Shown: positions 28,577-48,749 of the stretch, in pieces | Layout of the letters: every line of letters starts with the position of its first letter | How positions within the stretch are numbered: position 1 is the first letter of the stretch | Assembly: GCA_021778515.1 (NCBI GenBank) | Contig: JAJYCJ010000009.1 | Span: 1 to 56,398 of the forward strand | Length of the DNA: 56,398 nt | Direction of reading: 5' to 3' | Origin: Acidobacteriota bacterium | Lineage (GTDB): Bacteria > Acidobacteriota > UBA4820 > DSQY01 | The notes under the pieces: model-generated | Database searches by the model: none | Seen by the model: only the letters and a program-made list of their open reading frames with translations | What the model was told of the DNA's origin: nothing | Made by a program: the position numbers and the translations under genes

Positions 28577-28658
28577 GGTCTCACCCTCGCGACAGGCACC
28601 ATGAGACCCGCGGCGGTGCCCTTCTGGAAGCCTGACTTCATGAGCGTTCCGTGAAGTC
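28577..28658 (+). promoter_or_regulatory. Inverted repeats upstream of a sigma-54 promoter (candidate activator sites)
   Basis: GGTCTCA (28577-28583) and TGAGACC (28602-28608) form a perfect inverted repeat with 18 bases between. A second perfect inverted repeat, GACTTCA (28634-28640) and TGAAGTC (28652-28658), has 11 bases between. They lie about 20-100 bases upstream of the -24 element, where NtrC-type activators usually bind. Confidence 0.45.
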
Positions 28659-28675: not shown

Positions 28676-28691
28676 TGGCATCAGACTTGCT
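28676..28691 (+). promoter_or_regulatory. Sigma-54 (-24/-12) promoter of the Cys-rich receiver operon
   Basis: TGGCA at 28676-28680 and TTGCT at 28687-28691 place GG and GC exactly ten bases apart, the defining sigma-54 spacing. The start codon of the first gene follows 27 bases later. The operon encodes its own sigma-54 activator. Confidence 0.75.
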
Positions 28692-28717
28692 TCCTCGTGA
28701 AGGCAAGGAGGTCCACC

Positions 28718-29401
28718 ATGAACGAAAATACTATTGCCCGTGAGGAGCCCAGCCCTGACGCCGGAGACACCTTCGAGGTGATCTGCCAGCACTGCGGCCG
28801 GCTCTTCAATGCCTGCCAGAGCGCCTGGTGCGAATGCATCACCGACAACCCGACGCTGGTCTGCCCCCTCTGCCATACCTGCTTCTGCGACACCGACCCC
28901 GAATATCGCAAACATTTCTGGGAAGCGGCCCCGCCCGGCTTGTGGCAGCGCCGACTCCGCTACTCCTTCCGCGGCAACGCCAATCCTCCCCTCGAAGAGG
29001 GCAATCCGATCCGCAGGCCGCTCATCGAGGTGGTGGACGATGATCCCAATACGCGGCTCATCGCCTTCCACGTCCTGGAGGCGTTGGGTTACGGCGTGCT
29101 GCTGGCCGAGGACGGAGAGCGGGGATTTCAGATGGCGCGCCAGTTCGCGCCGGACCTGATCCTCACGGACCAGATCATGCCGCGCTGCGACGGCAAGCAC
29201 TTTTGCCGCCGAATCAAGGAAGACCCCGCCACACGGGACATCCGGGTGATCGTCATGACCGGCCTGTACAAGAAGGAGAGCCAGCGGATCGCCGTTCTGC
29301 GGGATTCGCACGCCGACGACTTCCTCACCAAGCCGATCTCCTTCGACCGGCTGGGCGAGATCCTGGGCTCGTGGTTGCCCCGGGCGGCGTGCGCGCTGTG
29401 A
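28718..29401 (+). CDS. Cys-rich N-terminal domain fused to a receiver domain
   Basis: This 227-residue protein has nine cysteines in residues 23-57 (C23, C26, C33, C38, C40, C49, C52, C55, C57) in CxxC and CxC patterns, suggesting bound metal or an Fe-S/zinc cluster. Residues about 100-220 form a receiver with phosphoacceptor D151, T181 and K205 (DFLTKPISFDRLGEI). No DNA-binding or enzymatic output is present. The ATG at 28718 follows AGGAGG by six bases. It is the first gene of a sigma-54 promoter operon with a histidine kinase and an NtrC-type regulator, so it probably joins their phosphorelay. Confidence 0.8.
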   Translation: MNENTIAREEPSPDAGDTFEVICQHCGRLFNACQSAWCECITDNPTLVCPLCHTCFCDTDPEYRKHFWEAAPPGLWQRRLRYSFRGNANPPLEEGNPIRRPLIEVVDDDPNTRLIAFHVLEALGYGVLLAEDGERGFQMARQFAPDLILTDQIMPRCDGKHFCRRIKEDPATRDIRVIVMTGLYKKESQRIAVLRDSHADDFLTKPISFDRLGEILGSWLPRAACAL

Positions 29402-29426: not shown

Positions 29427-30926
29427 ATGAAACCTGGCGCGGCCGAAGGGGGACGGGAGAGCGCGGGGCCGATGGCCGGCCTGGCGATGGAGCTCATCCC
29501 GGCCCATGATCTGCCCGCCGTGGCGAAGACGCTGAGCCGGTGGCTTCCCCGGATCCTGCCCGCGGGGGGCCGGGCCATGCTGGTCTTTGCGCCCGACGAG
29601 AAAGGATCGCTGGAGGGCTGGATCATCGGAGGCGGGGAGGCACCCGCGGCGCCGGCGGGACCGGCCCACCGAGAGGAAGGCCCAATCCCGACGGCCTTCG
29701 CCTCGCCTGCGGTCTTGAGAGAGCGGGCGGCCGAGGGCGGTTATGCCGTCTTGCCGCTGGATGCTGCGGGGGGGCCGTTCCCCTGCCTTCTCCTGGCTTC
29801 CGGCGGCCAATCCGGTGCCACGCCATCGGAAGCCTCGCAGGCTGATGCGCTGGCCGCCCTGCTCATTCTCACGCTGGGGCGGATGCGCATCCAATCCGTT
29901 CTGTCGGTGGGCAAGCGAGACTGGGAGAAGGCCTTCGATGCCTCCTCCGATCTCTTCGTCCTTCATGACGACTCGGGAAAGGTCTTTCGGGTCAACATGG
30001 CCGTCTCGCTCTTCCTCGGACTGCCGATCCAGGCGTGCATCGGGAGGAGCTGCGCGGAAATCCTCCCCGGGCTGTGTCAGATGCAGGACGCGTCCGGGCT
30101 CGAGTGGGCGGACGCGGCGAGGGGCCGCTCCTTCATCGCCTCCACCCAACACATCAATCTGGGCGGCCAGTCCGCCTGTCTCCACGTTCTGCACGAGGTC
30201 ACCGAAGAGCGCAGGGCCCAGGCCCTCGCCAAACAGCAGAGGGATCTCGAACTCACGAGGAAGATGCTGCAGGGGCTGGCGCACGAGATCCGAAACCCCT
30301 TGTTCGGCATCAGCTCGGTCGTGCAGGCGCTGGAGGCCAGGATCTCCTCTGACGCCGCGGCCAAACCCTACCTCGCGATCGTCCTGCGGGAGGTCAAGCG
30401 CCTCGACCGCCTCGTCCGAAGGTTCATGCAGCTCGCCTTCCCGAGCGAACTGGACCAGCCCGGCACGGTGGAGGTGGAGGCCATCCTCCGACGCGCCCTC
30501 GAAATCACGGGAGAGCGCAGGCCCGAGCTCGACACAAAACGAATCCGGCTCCTGTGCGAGCCCGGCCTTCCGGCCCTTCGGGGCGACGGAGAGACCCTGG
30601 CGCAGGGCTTGGCCGATCTCTTCGAGAACGCCCTCTTCTTCGGCCCCGCCGGCAGCCCCGTCGCGGTTCGGGCCCTCAGGTCCGAAGGCTTGACGGTCCT
30701 TTCGGTAGAGGACGAGGGGCCCGGCATCCTGGAGGGCCACCTCGACCTGATCTTCGAGCCCTTCTTCACCACCGTCCCGCACCGCACCGGCCTGGGCTTG
30801 AGCCTGGCCCGGTCCGCGGTCCTCCAGTACGGCGGCACCCTCAGCGTGCGCAGCGCCCCCCCTTCTCCCGGCGCCACTTTCCTGATAGCCTTGCCCTCAG
30901 GAATGGCACAGGGGAAGGAAGAATGA
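29427..30926 (+). CDS. GAF/PAS-type sensor histidine kinase
   Basis: This 499-residue soluble kinase has a GAF-like N-terminal region (about 20-155), then a PAS domain (about 165-262). The dimerisation domain carries the phosphorylated histidine H286 in LQGLAHEIRNPLFGISS. The ATPase domain has an N-box LFENALFFG, then EDEGPGI and TGLGLSLA. There is no transmembrane segment, so it senses an internal signal. It lies 25 bases after the Cys-rich receiver gene and overlaps the following regulator as ATGA, so the three proteins probably form one relay. Confidence 0.9.
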   Translation: MKPGAAEGGRESAGPMAGLAMELIPAHDLPAVAKTLSRWLPRILPAGGRAMLVFAPDEKGSLEGWIIGGGEAPAAPAGPAHREEGPIPTAFASPAVLRERAAEGGYAVLPLDAAGGPFPCLLLASGGQSGATPSEASQADALAALLILTLGRMRIQSVLSVGKRDWEKAFDASSDLFVLHDDSGKVFRVNMAVSLFLGLPIQACIGRSCAEILPGLCQMQDASGLEWADAARGRSFIASTQHINLGGQSACLHVLHEVTEERRAQALAKQQRDLELTRKMLQGLAHEIRNPLFGISSVVQALEARISSDAAAKPYLAIVLREVKRLDRLVRRFMQLAFPSELDQPGTVEVEAILRRALEITGERRPELDTKRIRLLCEPGLPALRGDGETLAQGLADLFENALFFGPAGSPVAVRALRSEGLTVLSVEDEGPGILEGHLDLIFEPFFTTVPHRTGLGLSLARSAVLQYGGTLSVRSAPPSPGATFLIALPSGMAQGKEE

Positions 30927-32266
30927 ACCTGCTGCTCATCGACGACGAGCCCGCGATCCGCTTCGGCATTGCCAAGTATCTAGAGGGTGAGGGATTCCGA
31001 ATCACCGAGGCGGCCTGTCTCGCGGAGGCCCGCGAACGGCTGGTCAAGCAGGGCTTCGGAGCCATCCTGCTGGATGTGAAGCTCCCCGACGGAGAGGGCA
31101 TCGACTTTCTCAAGGAGATCCGTGAGCACGACCCCTCGGTCCCGGTCGTGGTCATCACCGGCCACGGCACCATCCCCATGGCCGTGGAGGCCATGCGCCG
31201 CGGGGCCGACCATTTCCTGACCAAGCCCGTGGACCTCAAGGAGCTGGAGATTCTCCTGAACAAGGCCATGCAGATCGGCACCCTGCGCCGGGAGAACCGC
31301 GCCCTCAGGGAGCGTCCCCGCATGCTGTCCCCCCACCTCGGGGACAGCCCGGCCATGCAGCGCATCGAGCCCCTGCTCGCGGCCGCCTGCCGGCACAGGA
31401 GCCCCCTGCTCCTGCGGGGGGAAACGGGCACCGGCAAGGGGCTCATGGCGCGTCACATCCACCAGAACTCCGGCGAGCGCGACGAGCCCTTCGTGGAGCT
31501 CAACTGCGCGGGGCTGAAGGGGGAGTTCCTGGAGACGGAGCTGTTCGGCCATTCCAAGGGGGCGTTCACGGGTGCGGTGGAGACGAAGGAGGGGCTGCTG
31601 GAGAGGGCCCACCGCGGCACCCTGTTCCTGGACGAGATCGGTGACATGGACATGACGGTGCAGGCCAAGTTCCTGAAGGTGCTTGAAGAGAAGCGCTTCC
31701 GTCCCCTCGGCCGCGTGGAGGAGAGGGTCTCCGACTTCCGCCTCATCTGCGCGACCCATCAGGACCTGGAGAAGCGCATCGAATCCGGAGAGTTCCGGCG
31801 GGACCTCTTCTACCGGATCAACACCCTGTCCATCATCCTGCCGCCGCTGCGCGAGCGGACCCGGGAGATGCCTCAGTTGGTCTCGCACCTCCTCCGCTTC
31901 ATCGTCCAGGGCCGAGCCGTTCCCGAGGTGGGGAAGGAGGTGCTCGGACTCCTCTGTTCCTACCCATGGCCGGGCAATCTCAGGGAGTTGCACAATGTTC
32001 TGGAGCGGGCGTGGATCCTCTCGGACGGCAAGAAACTCCGCCCCGAGCACTTCAGCTCGCTGGGCCCTTCTTTGCCCGCGCCAGCCGGATCCGACCCGAC
32101 GAACGGGCCCTCCGACCTTGACTCCGCCGAGAAGAGGCACATCGAACAGGTCCTGAGAGAGGTCAAGGGCGACGTGAACAGGGCCGCCAAGCTCCTGGGC
32201 GTCTCCCGTGCCACGCTCTACCGCAAGATCACCAGGCACGCTCTGGCGCTGGATGATTGCCGGTGA
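30923..32266 (+). CDS. Sigma-54-dependent NtrC-type response regulator
   Basis: This 447-residue activator has a receiver with D51, T79 and K101. Its AAA+ domain has Walker A GETGTGK at 166-172, GAFTGA at 213-218 and Walker B LFLDEIG near 234-240, with PWPGNLREL. The C-terminal Fis-type helix-turn-helix is GDVNRAAKLLGVSRATLYRKI. It is translationally coupled to the kinase. The most obvious targets are the two -24/-12 promoters flanking this operon, at 28676 (self) and 32375 (the receiver-EAL pair). Confidence 0.93.
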   Translation: MNLLLIDDEPAIRFGIAKYLEGEGFRITEAACLAEARERLVKQGFGAILLDVKLPDGEGIDFLKEIREHDPSVPVVVITGHGTIPMAVEAMRRGADHFLTKPVDLKELEILLNKAMQIGTLRRENRALRERPRMLSPHLGDSPAMQRIEPLLAAACRHRSPLLLRGETGTGKGLMARHIHQNSGERDEPFVELNCAGLKGEFLETELFGHSKGAFTGAVETKEGLLERAHRGTLFLDEIGDMDMTVQAKFLKVLEEKRFRPLGRVEERVSDFRLICATHQDLEKRIESGEFRRDLFYRINTLSIILPPLRERTREMPQLVSHLLRFIVQGRAVPEVGKEVLGLLCSYPWPGNLRELHNVLERAWILSDGKKLRPEHFSSLGPSLPAPAGSDPTNGPSDLDSAEKRHIEQVLREVKGDVNRAAKLLGVSRATLYRKITRHALALDDCR

Positions 32267-32374: not shown

Positions 32375-32390
32375 TGGCACGGGGCTTGCT
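32375..32390 (+). promoter_or_regulatory. Sigma-54 (-24/-12) promoter of the receiver-EAL operon
   Basis: TGGCAC (32375-32380) and TTGCT (32386-32390) match the sigma-54 consensus with GG and GC ten bases apart. It lies about 110 bases past the end of the sigma-54 activator gene and 30 bases before the receiver start. Confidence 0.85.
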
Positions 32391-32420
32391 TGATTGAAGT
32401 GGACGCCGAGGGAGGCCGCC

Positions 32421-32810
32421 ATGAGCTACAAGATTCTGGTAGTCGATGACGAGAGCGCCACGGCCTTCGGCTTGAAGGCTCTCTTGGAGAGGGAAGACGT
32501 CGAGGTCCTGACGGCCGTGAACGCCCACAGCGCCCGCGAGATCCTCGGTTCCGGGAGTATCCAGGTGCTCCTCTCGGACATCCGCCTCAAGGGGACGCTG
32601 GACGCCGAAGGGCTGGAACTGCTCCGGTTCGTGCGGGATAACGGGCTGAAGACCCAAACCATCCTCATGACCGGATACGGTGACCCGGCGGTCATGCAAA
32701 AGGCCTTCGAGCTGGGCGCCGCCTACTACTTCGAAAAGCCCGTCGAACTGACGACGCTCAGCGAGGCCATCCAAGAACTTGGCGTCCCCAACGCCCTGTC
32801 GGGAGGGTGA
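32421..32810 (+). CDS. Single-domain response regulator paired with an EAL protein
   Basis: This 129-residue receiver has the acidic residues D9-D10-E11, phosphoacceptor D53 (VLLSDIRLKGTLDAEGL), T in LMTGYGD and K in FEKPVEL. No output domain is attached. The ATG at 32421 follows GGGAGG by six bases and stands 31 bases from the sigma-54 promoter. One base separates its stop from the EAL gene start, so it probably acts on, or alongside, that phosphodiesterase. Confidence 0.88.
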   Translation: MSYKILVVDDESATAFGLKALLEREDVEVLTAVNAHSAREILGSGSIQVLLSDIRLKGTLDAEGLELLRFVRDNGLKTQTILMTGYGDPAVMQKAFELGAAYYFEKPVELTTLSEAIQELGVPNALSGG

Positions 32811-32811
32811 G

Positions 32812-33660
32812 ATGACCACCGAGGACCAGGTCCGCCACCTTCTCAAGCGCGGGTACATCTCCACGGCCTATCAGCCCATCGTCAATCTCCAGAACGGCGG
32901 GATCCTGGGATACGAGGCGCTGATGCGGGGTCCCAAGGACACTCCGCTCAGCCACCCCGGCTGGATCTTCGGCCCGTCCAGCCGCGTCTCCGACGGGCTC
33001 ATCCAGGATCTGGACGCGGCCTGCATCGCGGCCTCTCTTCGGTCGGGGCACATGCTGGTTCCCGCGGGGGACCTCTTCATCAACGTGCACATCAGCACCC
33101 TGCTCCACCTCCGCAAGATGCAGTCTCTCTTCGAGAATCTCCTCGATTCCAGCGGCATCCCGCCGGAGGCGGTGGTGATCGAGATCTCCGAAAGGACCAA
33201 GGCCCCCAATCCCCGCGCCCTCTCCAGAATCCTGCGAACCCTGCGCCGGAGAGGCTTCCGCTTCGCGCTCGACGATTTCGGTCAGGCCTTCTCGGGCCTT
33301 CAGCACCTCCTGTGGTTCGAGCCGGAGTTCATCAAGATCGACCGCGCCTTCATCCTGGGCATCCAGCGTTCCGCGCGAAAGCAGGCTCTCGTGGCTGGCG
33401 TGGCGACCATGGCTCAGAAGCTGGGCGGGCAGGTCGTGGCGGAAGGGGTGGAGACCTCCGAAGAGCTCTTGACCCTCATGGCCTTGGATGTCCCCATGGC
33501 CCAGGGATACCACTTCGGTCGCCCCCAGTCCGCCCTCTTCTGGACGGCCGAGGGGAAGGTCAAGGCCATCTTCCGGCCCTGGTTTCAAGCGGGAGCGGCC
33601 CCCGGCGGAAGCGGCAGTGCCGAGGGCGGCGGCCGAGGCGGCCCCCCGCCCGTGAACTGA
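32812..33660 (+). CDS. EAL-domain c-di-GMP phosphodiesterase
   Basis: This 282-residue protein is an EAL domain with no other recognised domain. The catalytic set looks complete: E35 of EAL with R39, N91, E124, D154 and D155 of DDFG, K175, E211 and E214 of EGVET. It should hydrolyse cyclic di-GMP to pGpG. The last 30 residues are Gly/Pro-rich and probably disordered. The adjacent lone receiver may regulate it in trans. The pair's sigma-54 promoter makes its synthesis dependent on an NtrC-type activator. Confidence 0.92.
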   Translation: MTTEDQVRHLLKRGYISTAYQPIVNLQNGGILGYEALMRGPKDTPLSHPGWIFGPSSRVSDGLIQDLDAACIAASLRSGHMLVPAGDLFINVHISTLLHLRKMQSLFENLLDSSGIPPEAVVIEISERTKAPNPRALSRILRTLRRRGFRFALDDFGQAFSGLQHLLWFEPEFIKIDRAFILGIQRSARKQALVAGVATMAQKLGGQVVAEGVETSEELLTLMALDVPMAQGYHFGRPQSALFWTAEGKVKAIFRPWFQAGAAPGGSGSAEGGGRGGPPPVN

Positions 33661-34226: not shown

Positions 34227-35576
34227 TCACCCCTGGAGCAGCGTCTTGGCCATCTCCACGATGCCGGCCTCCATGTCGGGGCCCAGGGTGTTCTTGACGG
34301 CGAAGAGCTGAAAGTAGAGGAGCTCGTTCAGCTCCCGCACCAAGGCGCTCTCGCGCTCCTCGGGCAGGGCGGCCAGGCGGGACATGAGGGGTTCGTCGGC
34401 CAGCACCCCCTCCTCCGTCAGGCTGAGGCCGGCGAGGAGGGAGGACCCGGCTTCCAGCCCCTTGAAGAAGGCTCCCAGGATCACCTCCACCTTCCGGCCC
34501 ACCTCGATGGAGAGGGCCTGAAAGATCGTCGAGAAGACGCTGTTGTAGCTCTCCAGGCGCCGGATCAGGAGCGCCCGCTCCTCGCCGGAAAGCGTGGCCG
34601 AGGCGGCCTCGGGTTCGGCCGGCGCCGGCGTCTCCCTCACGACCCGGACCAGGCCCGCCGCGATGAGCGAGGCCACGGCCTTCTTGCCCTCCATCTCTCC
34701 CACCTTGGCCCGAAGAAGCACCTCTTGCAGGGTGCGGGCGCCGGTGATCTGCCCGAGCACCTGCTCCTCCTCGAAGGTGATGCTGGTGGAGGCCGTCACG
34801 TCCTCCGGCGTCTCAAGCACGGCGTCTGGAGGCGGGACGCGGTCCTGCACCCTCGCCCATTCGTCCAGCCGGCGGGTGGCCTCCATGACATAGTTGGTCG
34901 TGGACATGGGAAGGTTCAGGACGAAGGGCGACTGGACCTCCCCGTTCTGAAAGCCGAAACGCCCCCTGCCCAGCCCGAACACGCGGAAGATGATGGCCTC
35001 CACGCACCGGATCCATTGCTCCCGGAACTCCTCGAGGCCCAGGCCCGAGACCTCCAGCAGGACCTTGAGAGTGCCTCGTTTGTCCTCCAGGAGGTTGGAG
35101 CCCTGGATCAGATCCTGTTCGGTCAGGAACTGGCGTTGGAGCAAGTAGGCGGTCAGGCCGGATTTGGGGTCGTCCCCGGTGGCGAAAACCAGATTGCCGT
35201 TCTGAAAGAAGAAGCCCCAGCGCTGTCCCTCCTCCTGCACCACGAGCAGTCCGCTCTTCTTGCTGGCCGACAGGAAAAGGAAGACGTCGCTCAGGGCGAG
35301 AACGGACAGGTCGCCCTCGAACTGGACGCCCTCTCGCTCGGGCTCGGCCTTGCGGAAGTGCTCCTCCTGGACCGCGGAAAGGGATTCGAACTGGTGGAAG
35401 CGATCGAGCAGTTGGGGAACTTGTCCCGACTCGATGTCCACGTAGACCGGGGAGACGACGAGACACCCCGACCGCAGATGAACCACCGCCTCCCGCGCCT
35501 TGCCGAACACCTCCTCCACGAGCTCCCTTGGAACCACGATGGAGCCATCGCCCTGGATGGGTATCGCCTTGCGCAC
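34227..35576 (-). CDS. DUF4388 (PATAN-type) protein with AbrB-like N-terminus
   Basis: This 449-residue cytoplasmic protein starts with a 45-residue segment, IPIQGDGSIVVPRELVEEVFG...LRSGCLVVSP, that resembles the AbrB/SpoVT swapped-hairpin fold. Residues about 85-235 match DUF4388: FEGDLSVLALSDVFLFLSASKKSGLLVVQ and WGFFFQNGNLVFAT, ending RGRFGFQNGE. A helical region and a second helical C-terminal part follow. DUF4388 domains occur in signalling and gliding proteins, often beside receivers. GGAGG lies five bases before the GTG start, and a strong promoter lies just upstream. Confidence 0.78.
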   Translation of the reverse strand: MRKAIPIQGDGSIVVPRELVEEVFGKAREAVVHLRSGCLVVSPVYVDIESGQVPQLLDRFHQFESLSAVQEEHFRKAEPEREGVQFEGDLSVLALSDVFLFLSASKKSGLLVVQEEGQRWGFFFQNGNLVFATGDDPKSGLTAYLLQRQFLTEQDLIQGSNLLEDKRGTLKVLLEVSGLGLEEFREQWIRCVEAIIFRVFGLGRGRFGFQNGEVQSPFVLNLPMSTTNYVMEATRRLDEWARVQDRVPPPDAVLETPEDVTASTSITFEEEQVLGQITGARTLQEVLLRAKVGEMEGKKAVASLIAAGLVRVVRETPAPAEPEAASATLSGEERALLIRRLESYNSVFSTIFQALSIEVGRKVEVILGAFFKGLEAGSSLLAGLSLTEEGVLADEPLMSRLAALPEERESALVRELNELLYFQLFAVKNTLGPDMEAGIVEMAKTLLQG

Positions 35577-47078: not shown

Positions 47079-48749
47079 ATGAGCTCCGAACCGCGGCCGG
47101 TGATGGGCGAGCTCCTCTTGAAGGAGGGGCTCCTGACGCCGGAGCAGCTCCAGGAGGCCCTGGCGGCGCAGCGGCACCTGGGCGGGCGATTGGGGTATCA
47201 CCTCATCCGCCTGGGCTTCCTGAACGTCCAGCGGCTCAGCCAGTTTCTGCGGGACTCCATGGGCCTCATTCCCTACGATCTGGCCCAGTGGATCAAGGAC
47301 CCCTCCGTCACCGAGGCCATCCCGAGCAACCTCGCCCAGTTCTACCAGGTCGTCCCCGTGGAGAGGAACGGCAACACGCTCACGGTGGCCCTCGCGGACC
47401 TCGACAACCCCAGCATCGTGCCCGCCTTGGAGGAGCTTACCGGGCTCACGGTGGACCCCGTGGTCTGCCCCAGGGAGGTCGTGGTCCGGGCCCTCGAGCA
47501 GTTCTATGGCGTCGCCAAGGACCCCGGAGTAGAGAGGAGCTTCTCGGGCGATCACCTGTTCGTGCTCTCCTCCTCGGCCAGGCGGATCCGGCCGCTCCAC
47601 TGGTCCACGCTCAAACCCGATTCCTCGGCCAACGACTGGCTCAGGACCATGCTCGCGGAGGCCATCCGGAGCGGCTGCAGGACCGTCTCCATCAGGCCGG
47701 GGGAGACCACCCTCAGGGTGGCTTTCAAGCACGGTGAACGCTGGGAGGACCGCTTCGGCATTTCTCCCAGGAAGAGCCAGGAGCTGGACGCCCTTTTGAC
47801 CGAATTGGCCCGATTGAAAGACCGCAGCCGCGGGTCCAGGCTCGAAGGAAGGGTCCGCCTGCAGGTGGATTCGCGATTCCTCAGCCTCTATGTCCGGGCG
47901 CTGACCTCCCTGCAGGGTACGCGCTACACCTTGATGCTGTACGACGAGCGGGTCTTCCTCCAGGACTGGGAGCGCCTCGAATCCCAGCTTCTTCCTGGCG
48001 AACGCAAGAGTCTCGGGAAGGCGCTCGGCGGCGGCTCGGGCCTGCTACTCCTGGTGGGATCGCCGGGCCACGGCATGAGCCAGGTTTACTACGCCCTGCT
48101 GAGCTGGCTGGCCCGGACGCGCCAGCCGGCTATCGCCCTGGAGGAATACGCCCTGCTGGCCATGGCGGACGTATCGCAGATGGAGGTCTCGCGCCAGGAA
48201 GGCGCCACGTGGCCGGAGCTGATCGCCCTCTCCCTGAAGCAGTCTCCCGCCCTGTTCGCCTGCTACCCCATCAAGGAGCGCAGCTCCATGGAGCTGGCCT
48301 TCCTGGCGGCCTCCCGGACGTGTGTGCTGGGAGTCCTCCACCAACCCGACGCCCTGTCGGCCATCCGCTGGTTCATGAGAAACCAGTTTCGCTCGCCGCT
48401 CAGAGCCGGCGTGCTCAAGGGCATTCTCACCGTGGCCAGCCTTCCCGAACTGTGCCCCCATTGCCGGCTTCCCATGGAGGTTCCCGGACGCTCCGGGGAG
48501 CAGCACGCCCTCTTCACGCGCCAGGGGTGCGAGAATTGCCTTGCCTGGGAGCAGCTGCCCACGCAGGAGGTCCTCGAGTGGCTGCCCCTCGGCAGCCGGC
48601 ACTCGGACCTCTTTCAGGACGAGCCGGACGCGGCCGCCCTCCAGCGCAGCCTTCTCGGGGCGGGCGGCGTGAGCCTCGGGCAGAGGGTGCTGAAGAGGGC
48701 CAAGGATGGGCTCTTGGATGGCCAGGAGGCGAGGGATTTTCTCCCTTGA
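47079..48749 (+). CDS. GspE/PilB-like pseudo-ATPase with MshEN domain
   Basis: This 556-residue protein follows the layout of type II secretion / type IV pilus ATPases but with lost catalytic motifs. Residues 8-140 form an MshEN-type region (MGELLLKEGLLTPEQLQEAL, GGRLGYHLIRLGFLN) of the sort that can bind c-di-GMP. At the Walker A position the sequence is GSPGHGMS (327-334), with Met333 in place of the essential Lys. The Walker B/GEIRD region is replaced by ACYPIKE. The metal-binding cysteines C459, C462, C484 and C487 remain. It may therefore be a regulatory or structural partner of a true ATPase. A promoter for the next gene overlaps its stop. Confidence 0.78.
   Translation: MSSEPRPVMGELLLKEGLLTPEQLQEALAAQRHLGGRLGYHLIRLGFLNVQRLSQFLRDSMGLIPYDLAQWIKDPSVTEAIPSNLAQFYQVVPVERNGNTLTVALADLDNPSIVPALEELTGLTVDPVVCPREVVVRALEQFYGVAKDPGVERSFSGDHLFVLSSSARRIRPLHWSTLKPDSSANDWLRTMLAEAIRSGCRTVSIRPGETTLRVAFKHGERWEDRFGISPRKSQELDALLTELARLKDRSRGSRLEGRVRLQVDSRFLSLYVRALTSLQGTRYTLMLYDERVFLQDWERLESQLLPGERKSLGKALGGGSGLLLLVGSPGHGMSQVYYALLSWLARTRQPAIALEEYALLAMADVSQMEVSRQEGATWPELIALSLKQSPALFACYPIKERSSMELAFLAASRTCVLGVLHQPDALSAIRWFMRNQFRSPLRAGVLKGILTVASLPELCPHCRLPMEVPGRSGEQHALFTRQGCENCLAWEQLPTQEVLEWLPLGSRHSDLFQDEPDAAALQRSLLGAGGVSLGQRVLKRAKDGLLDGQEARDFLP

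Follow-up and report, generated by a model that had tools for sequence, protein, structure and literature searches.

A conserved cysteine-rich module, probably zinc-binding, on a receiver protein of an Acidobacteriota two-component operon

The Cys-receiver operon and its promoter-like sites

We analysed a 56,398-nucleotide stretch of DNA (contig JAJYCJ010000009.1) from an Acidobacteriota bacterium, referred to here as the window, and identified within it an operon with the gene order Cys-receiver, histidine kinase, NtrC-type activator, receiver and EAL. The features of this locus, with the basis of each in brackets where it applies, were the following:

28577..28608 (no strand): inverted repeat GGTCTCA-N18-TGAGACC, located upstream of the sigma-54 promoter-like site and a candidate activator site
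28676..28691 (+): sigma-54 -24/-12 promoter-like site TGGCATCAGACTTGCT (TGGCN7TTGCW), 26 bases before the ATG
28718..29401 (+): first operon gene, protein of 227 aa with a Cys-rich module and a receiver (translation; Pfam PF00072; homologues)
28769..28966 (+): Cys-rich (zinc-type) domain, about residues 18-83 (profile match; conservation; AF2 model)
29030..29359 (+): receiver domain, residues 105-214, with D108, D109, D151 and K205 (Pfam; residue counts)
29427..30926 (+): histidine kinase with PAS, HisKA and HATPase_c (Pfam; conserved operon)
30923..32266 (+): NtrC-type sigma-54 activator with receiver, AAA+ and Fis HTH (Pfam; conserved operon)
32375..32390 (+): second sigma-54 promoter-like site TGGCACGGGGCTTGCT (TGGCN7TTGCW), ahead of the genes for the stand-alone receiver and the EAL protein
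32421..32810 (+): stand-alone receiver (Pfam; the ORF tool gave a TTG start at 32394, ATG at 32421 being likely)
32779..33660 (+): EAL domain protein, putative c-di-GMP phosphodiesterase (Pfam PF00563, E 2e-50)

The ATG start codon of the Cys-receiver gene was located at 28718, with AAGGAGG upstream of it at 28705-28711. The gene order of the operon was kept at three related loci (L058, L059 and L060) and partly at a fourth (L072). A DUF4388 protein, encoded at 34227-35576 (-), is convergent to the operon, and this adjacency was kept in L059 and L060.

Four matches to TGGCN7TTGCW were found in the window versus 0.69 expected. The first site was also present ahead of the Cys-receiver gene in L058, L059, L060, L009 and L010/L072, while a counterpart of the second was located in L058 at 9601, and the inverted repeat was also retained in L058. 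Judging from these motifs, the operon may be under sigma-54 transcription driven by its own NtrC-type activator.

Outside the family of the window operon, at two further loci (L067 and L077), the genes after the Cys-receiver encode a kinase, a receiver and a protein of Hpt-REC-GGDEF architecture. The recurring context of the module is two-component signalling beside c-di-GMP enzymes or receptors, and no gene for redox or metal handling stood out in the neighbourhoods examined.

The Cys-receiver protein and the ligands of its module

The C-terminal part of the first operon protein, described in the first-pass annotation as a normal receiver with D151 and lacking a DNA-binding output, matched PF00072 over residues 105-214 with 74.6 bits against a cut-off of 30.2 (E 9e-21), and the description was right on both counts. 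Its catalytic residues are intact, since D151 was invariant in the alignment (49/49 relatives), K205 was found in 45 of the 49, and D108 and D109 were both present.

The same annotation had counted nine cysteines ahead of the receiver (C23, C26, C33, C38, C40, C49, C52, C55 and C57) and placed them at 28784-28891. All nine are present in the translation, with their codons at 28784-28888. With a background of 0.87% Cys, taken from the neighbouring proteins, at least nine Cys within 35 residues would be expected by chance with p of about 2e-11. As this composition is accompanied by a pattern kept in 92 distinct copies, the cluster is not a product of chance.

These 92 copies, on which the ligand counts are based, comprise 49 that lie before a receiver, 38 of a PilB type described below and 5 others. 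Some early copies had been gathered by their Cys pattern, the larger set by profile searches; every earlier match retained in the 92-copy alignment fitted the Cys pattern. The pattern reads CxxC-x11-CxC-x8-CPxCxxCFC and is followed by a helical FWxxAPxxLxxR segment, in which the strongest conservation outside the ligands was found (F67, W68, A71 and P72). Leaving aside copies truncated at a contig end, C23, C26, C38, C49, C52, C55 and C57 were Cys throughout. At the C40 position, Cys was found in 72 copies, His in 17, Asp in 2 and Arg in 1, so that the ligands, as in a zinc domain, were limited to Cys, His and Asp, apart from that one Arg (91/92 at this position). Poor conservation of the cysteines in homologues, which the first-pass annotation had named as the refuting outcome, was therefore not observed, except for C33, which was kept as Cys in just 4 of the 49 copies that precede a receiver. 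Thus, the claimed nine-Cys domain holds as a domain with eight conserved ligand positions, while C33 falls outside the conserved motif. Seven constant Cys with a Cys/His/Asp eighth make metal binding by the module well supported.

Searches of Pfam, NCBIfam, PDB sequences and PDB folds yielded nothing significant for the module. Members resembled several Pfam zinc families weakly, mostly zinc ribbons and zinc fingers, none of which exceeded its cut-off; the best for the window protein was zf-C2HC_2, with 13 bits versus 27. In the PDB, the best profile match of the module had an E-value of 0.13 and the best fold match 1.9, neither of which is significant. The AF2 confidence for the module core was mostly about 80-95. 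A fold search with the full-length model returned almost only receivers among its top matches, and the same search with a module-only model gave no significant match. The Cys module was not described in the literature that we searched, and it is an uncatalogued domain in current libraries. The window protein is real and conserved, and it is ordinary as a receiver that carries a zinc-type accessory domain.

Architectures and distribution of the module

In most receiver-type copies, the module lies directly N-terminal to the receiver. Tandem module-receiver pairs after a long N-terminal region were detected at four loci (L061, L063, L065 and L140), and one protein (L012) is a GGDEF-EAL-module-receiver fusion. 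The four proteins with tandem pairs are large, their N-terminal region apparently having a hydrophobic start and coiled-coil-like repeats.

The module is not specific to receivers, as it also forms the N-terminus of a second large class of proteins, PilB/GspE-like, in which it precedes MshEN and T2SSE domains; one of these (L051) is encoded in the genome of the window itself. Six short PilB-type copies seemingly have no ATPase part (L127, L128, L132, L134, L135 and L138). The Walker A Lys was lost in each of the 30 acidobacterial PilB-type copies that could be read at this position, so the acidobacterial Cys-PilB proteins are probably not motors, and the Walker B Glu column held Glu in only four of the acidobacterial copies. 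A PilB-type copy from the phylum Schekmanbacteria (L151) retains GSGK, which is consistent with a descent of Cys-PilB from an active ATPase. In both PilB-type copies tested, the c-di-GMP motif of MshEN type, whose consensus was taken from PMC11731258, scored above the cut-off of NCBIfam NF053729.

Linkage of the Cys-PilB genes to pilus genes was sought and not found; the genes examined sit among housekeeping genes. According to rough gene calls, two Cys-PilB genes lie in tandem beside hisS-/aspS-like genes in L045 (G031:C94) and L050 (G016:C70). A second PilB/GspE-like protein, encoded in the window at 47079-48749 (+), has MshEN and no Cys module, and its Walker A region, GSPGHGM, likewise lacks the Lys.

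The module was detected in 25 of the 60 relatives searched and, by profile search, in 45 of 396 Acidobacteriota genomes (29 of 210 genera). A contig scan, for which the closer 10-row alignment set served as the query, returned 21 named loci, all acidobacterial save one record of Candidatus Schekmanbacteria; in this second phylum, 2 of the 8 genomes searched had the module. No match was seen in plasmid and phage records. Three genomes (G039, G064 and G100) had only the receiver type and four (G009-G012) only the PilB type. A strict pairing of the two types within one genome was considered and rejected, as they do not always co-occur. Many forks of the module tree are unresolved, and we claim no order for the fusions.

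Proposed role and comparison with known systems

The explanation that we favour as a whole, and consider moderately probable, is that of a receiver with a structural-zinc docking module, acting as a phospho-switched adaptor with a c-di-GMP-linked output and encoded in a sigma-54 autoregulated operon. The N-terminal domain would be a new zinc module with eight ligands (CxxC, Cx[C/H/D], CPxC and CxC). The exchange of Cys, His and Asp at one ligand, together with the CPxC pairs, points to zinc, probably two ions, and the eight-ligand pattern agrees better with a domain that binds two zinc ions than with an Fe-S cluster. The zinc would most likely be structural.

The first-pass annotation had suggested instead that phosphorylation and the metal or redox state could be integrated in this one protein. 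The module would then be a sensor in which zinc occupancy or thiol oxidation gates the receiver, and since dense thiolate sites can serve as redox switches and the module adjoins the receiver through a linker, such gating is conceivable. However, the same module is found on PilB-like proteins that have no receiver; the eight positions are all kept, leaving no variable sensing Cys, and the spare C33 is lost in most relatives. The proposal is unsupported and we think it unlikely, as the receiver-less fusions and the lack of a redox or metal gene among the neighbours examined make a structural or docking zinc module the simpler reading.

Many zinc ribbons bind nucleic acids, and given the sub-threshold similarity of the module to zinc ribbon and C2H2 families, it could be asked whether it is a nucleic-acid-binding zinc finger and the protein a small response regulator that acts in transcription or binds RNA. 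This seems to us more doubtful still, since reuse on PilB-type c-di-GMP proteins would be odd for a DNA-binding domain, the strongest conservation outside the cysteines is hydrophobic rather than basic, and the operon already holds a DNA-binding output in its NtrC-type activator. As for Fe-S binding, which had been named together with metal binding, the run C49xxC52xxC55xC57 is superficially like Fe-S motifs, but we consider such a cluster very improbable. The ligands fall into zinc-knuckle-like pairs (CPxC), one position carries His or Asp in 19 of the 92 copies, an exchange typically seen at zinc ligands and rarely at those of Fe-S clusters, and no Fe-S family appeared among the mostly zinc ribbon and finger resemblances listed from Pfam.

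Returning to the structural-zinc docking module, D151 would be phosphorylated, most likely by the histidine kinase of the operon, whose gene is adjacent, and the receiver would thereby be switched. The Cys module would dock the receiver to a partner in a c-di-GMP-linked output; we infer docking because the module is reused on receivers, in tandem pairs, in the GGDEF-EAL fusion and on PilB-like proteins. The sigma-54 promoters would be served by the operon's own NtrC-type activator. A direct receiver-PilB pair is disfavoured, as the two module types do not always occur together. Perhaps the module is a shared adaptor, which would bring phosphorelay receivers and signalling-only, ATPase-dead, c-di-GMP-binding PilB descendants to a common partner or into contact with one another, an idea that we put forward only tentatively and regard as rather unlikely. 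If it were true, phosphorylation and c-di-GMP would converge on one complex in Acidobacteriota.

The domain, which is unnamed in current libraries, joins receivers and PilB-like proteins without an ATPase signature, two groups that were not obviously connected before. If it is indeed a docking adaptor, it would offer a handle on the coupling of phosphorelay and c-di-GMP in Acidobacteriota, a phylum with few genetic tools.

Like single-domain response regulators of the CheY/DivK/Spo0F type (PF00072), the window protein has the catalytic Asp and Lys and no DNA-binding output; it differs from them in its additional N-terminal module with eight ligands. The order of ligand pairs in the module is similar to that of AN1-type zinc fingers (CxxC, CxC, Cxx[H/C] and [H/C]xC), although no AN1 family was listed in the Pfam results and no AN1 structure was among the fold matches of the module. 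A domain that is likewise Cys-rich, predicted to bind zinc and found in two-component proteins is TackOD1 (PMC5847659). It is an output domain of archaeal response regulators, has 11 Cys and is reported from type IV pilus loci of thaumarchaea, which links it independently to type IV pilus genes. Its 11 Cys are arranged as CxxC/HxxC pairs, whereas our module has eight positions in the order CxxC-CxC-CxxC-CxC, and TackOD1 was not among the listed Pfam matches of the module. The PilB of Myxococcus xanthus has a signalling role, as a substitution of its Walker A Lys still signals exopolysaccharide production (PMC5544727). The acidobacterial Cys-PilB proteins are, like it, of the PilB family with c-di-GMP motifs; the M. 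xanthus protein additionally works as a motor, whereas the acidobacterial proteins are naturally without the Walker A Lys and carry the Cys module. We take the analogies with M. xanthus PilB and TackOD1 as a lead, and not as a claim of membership.
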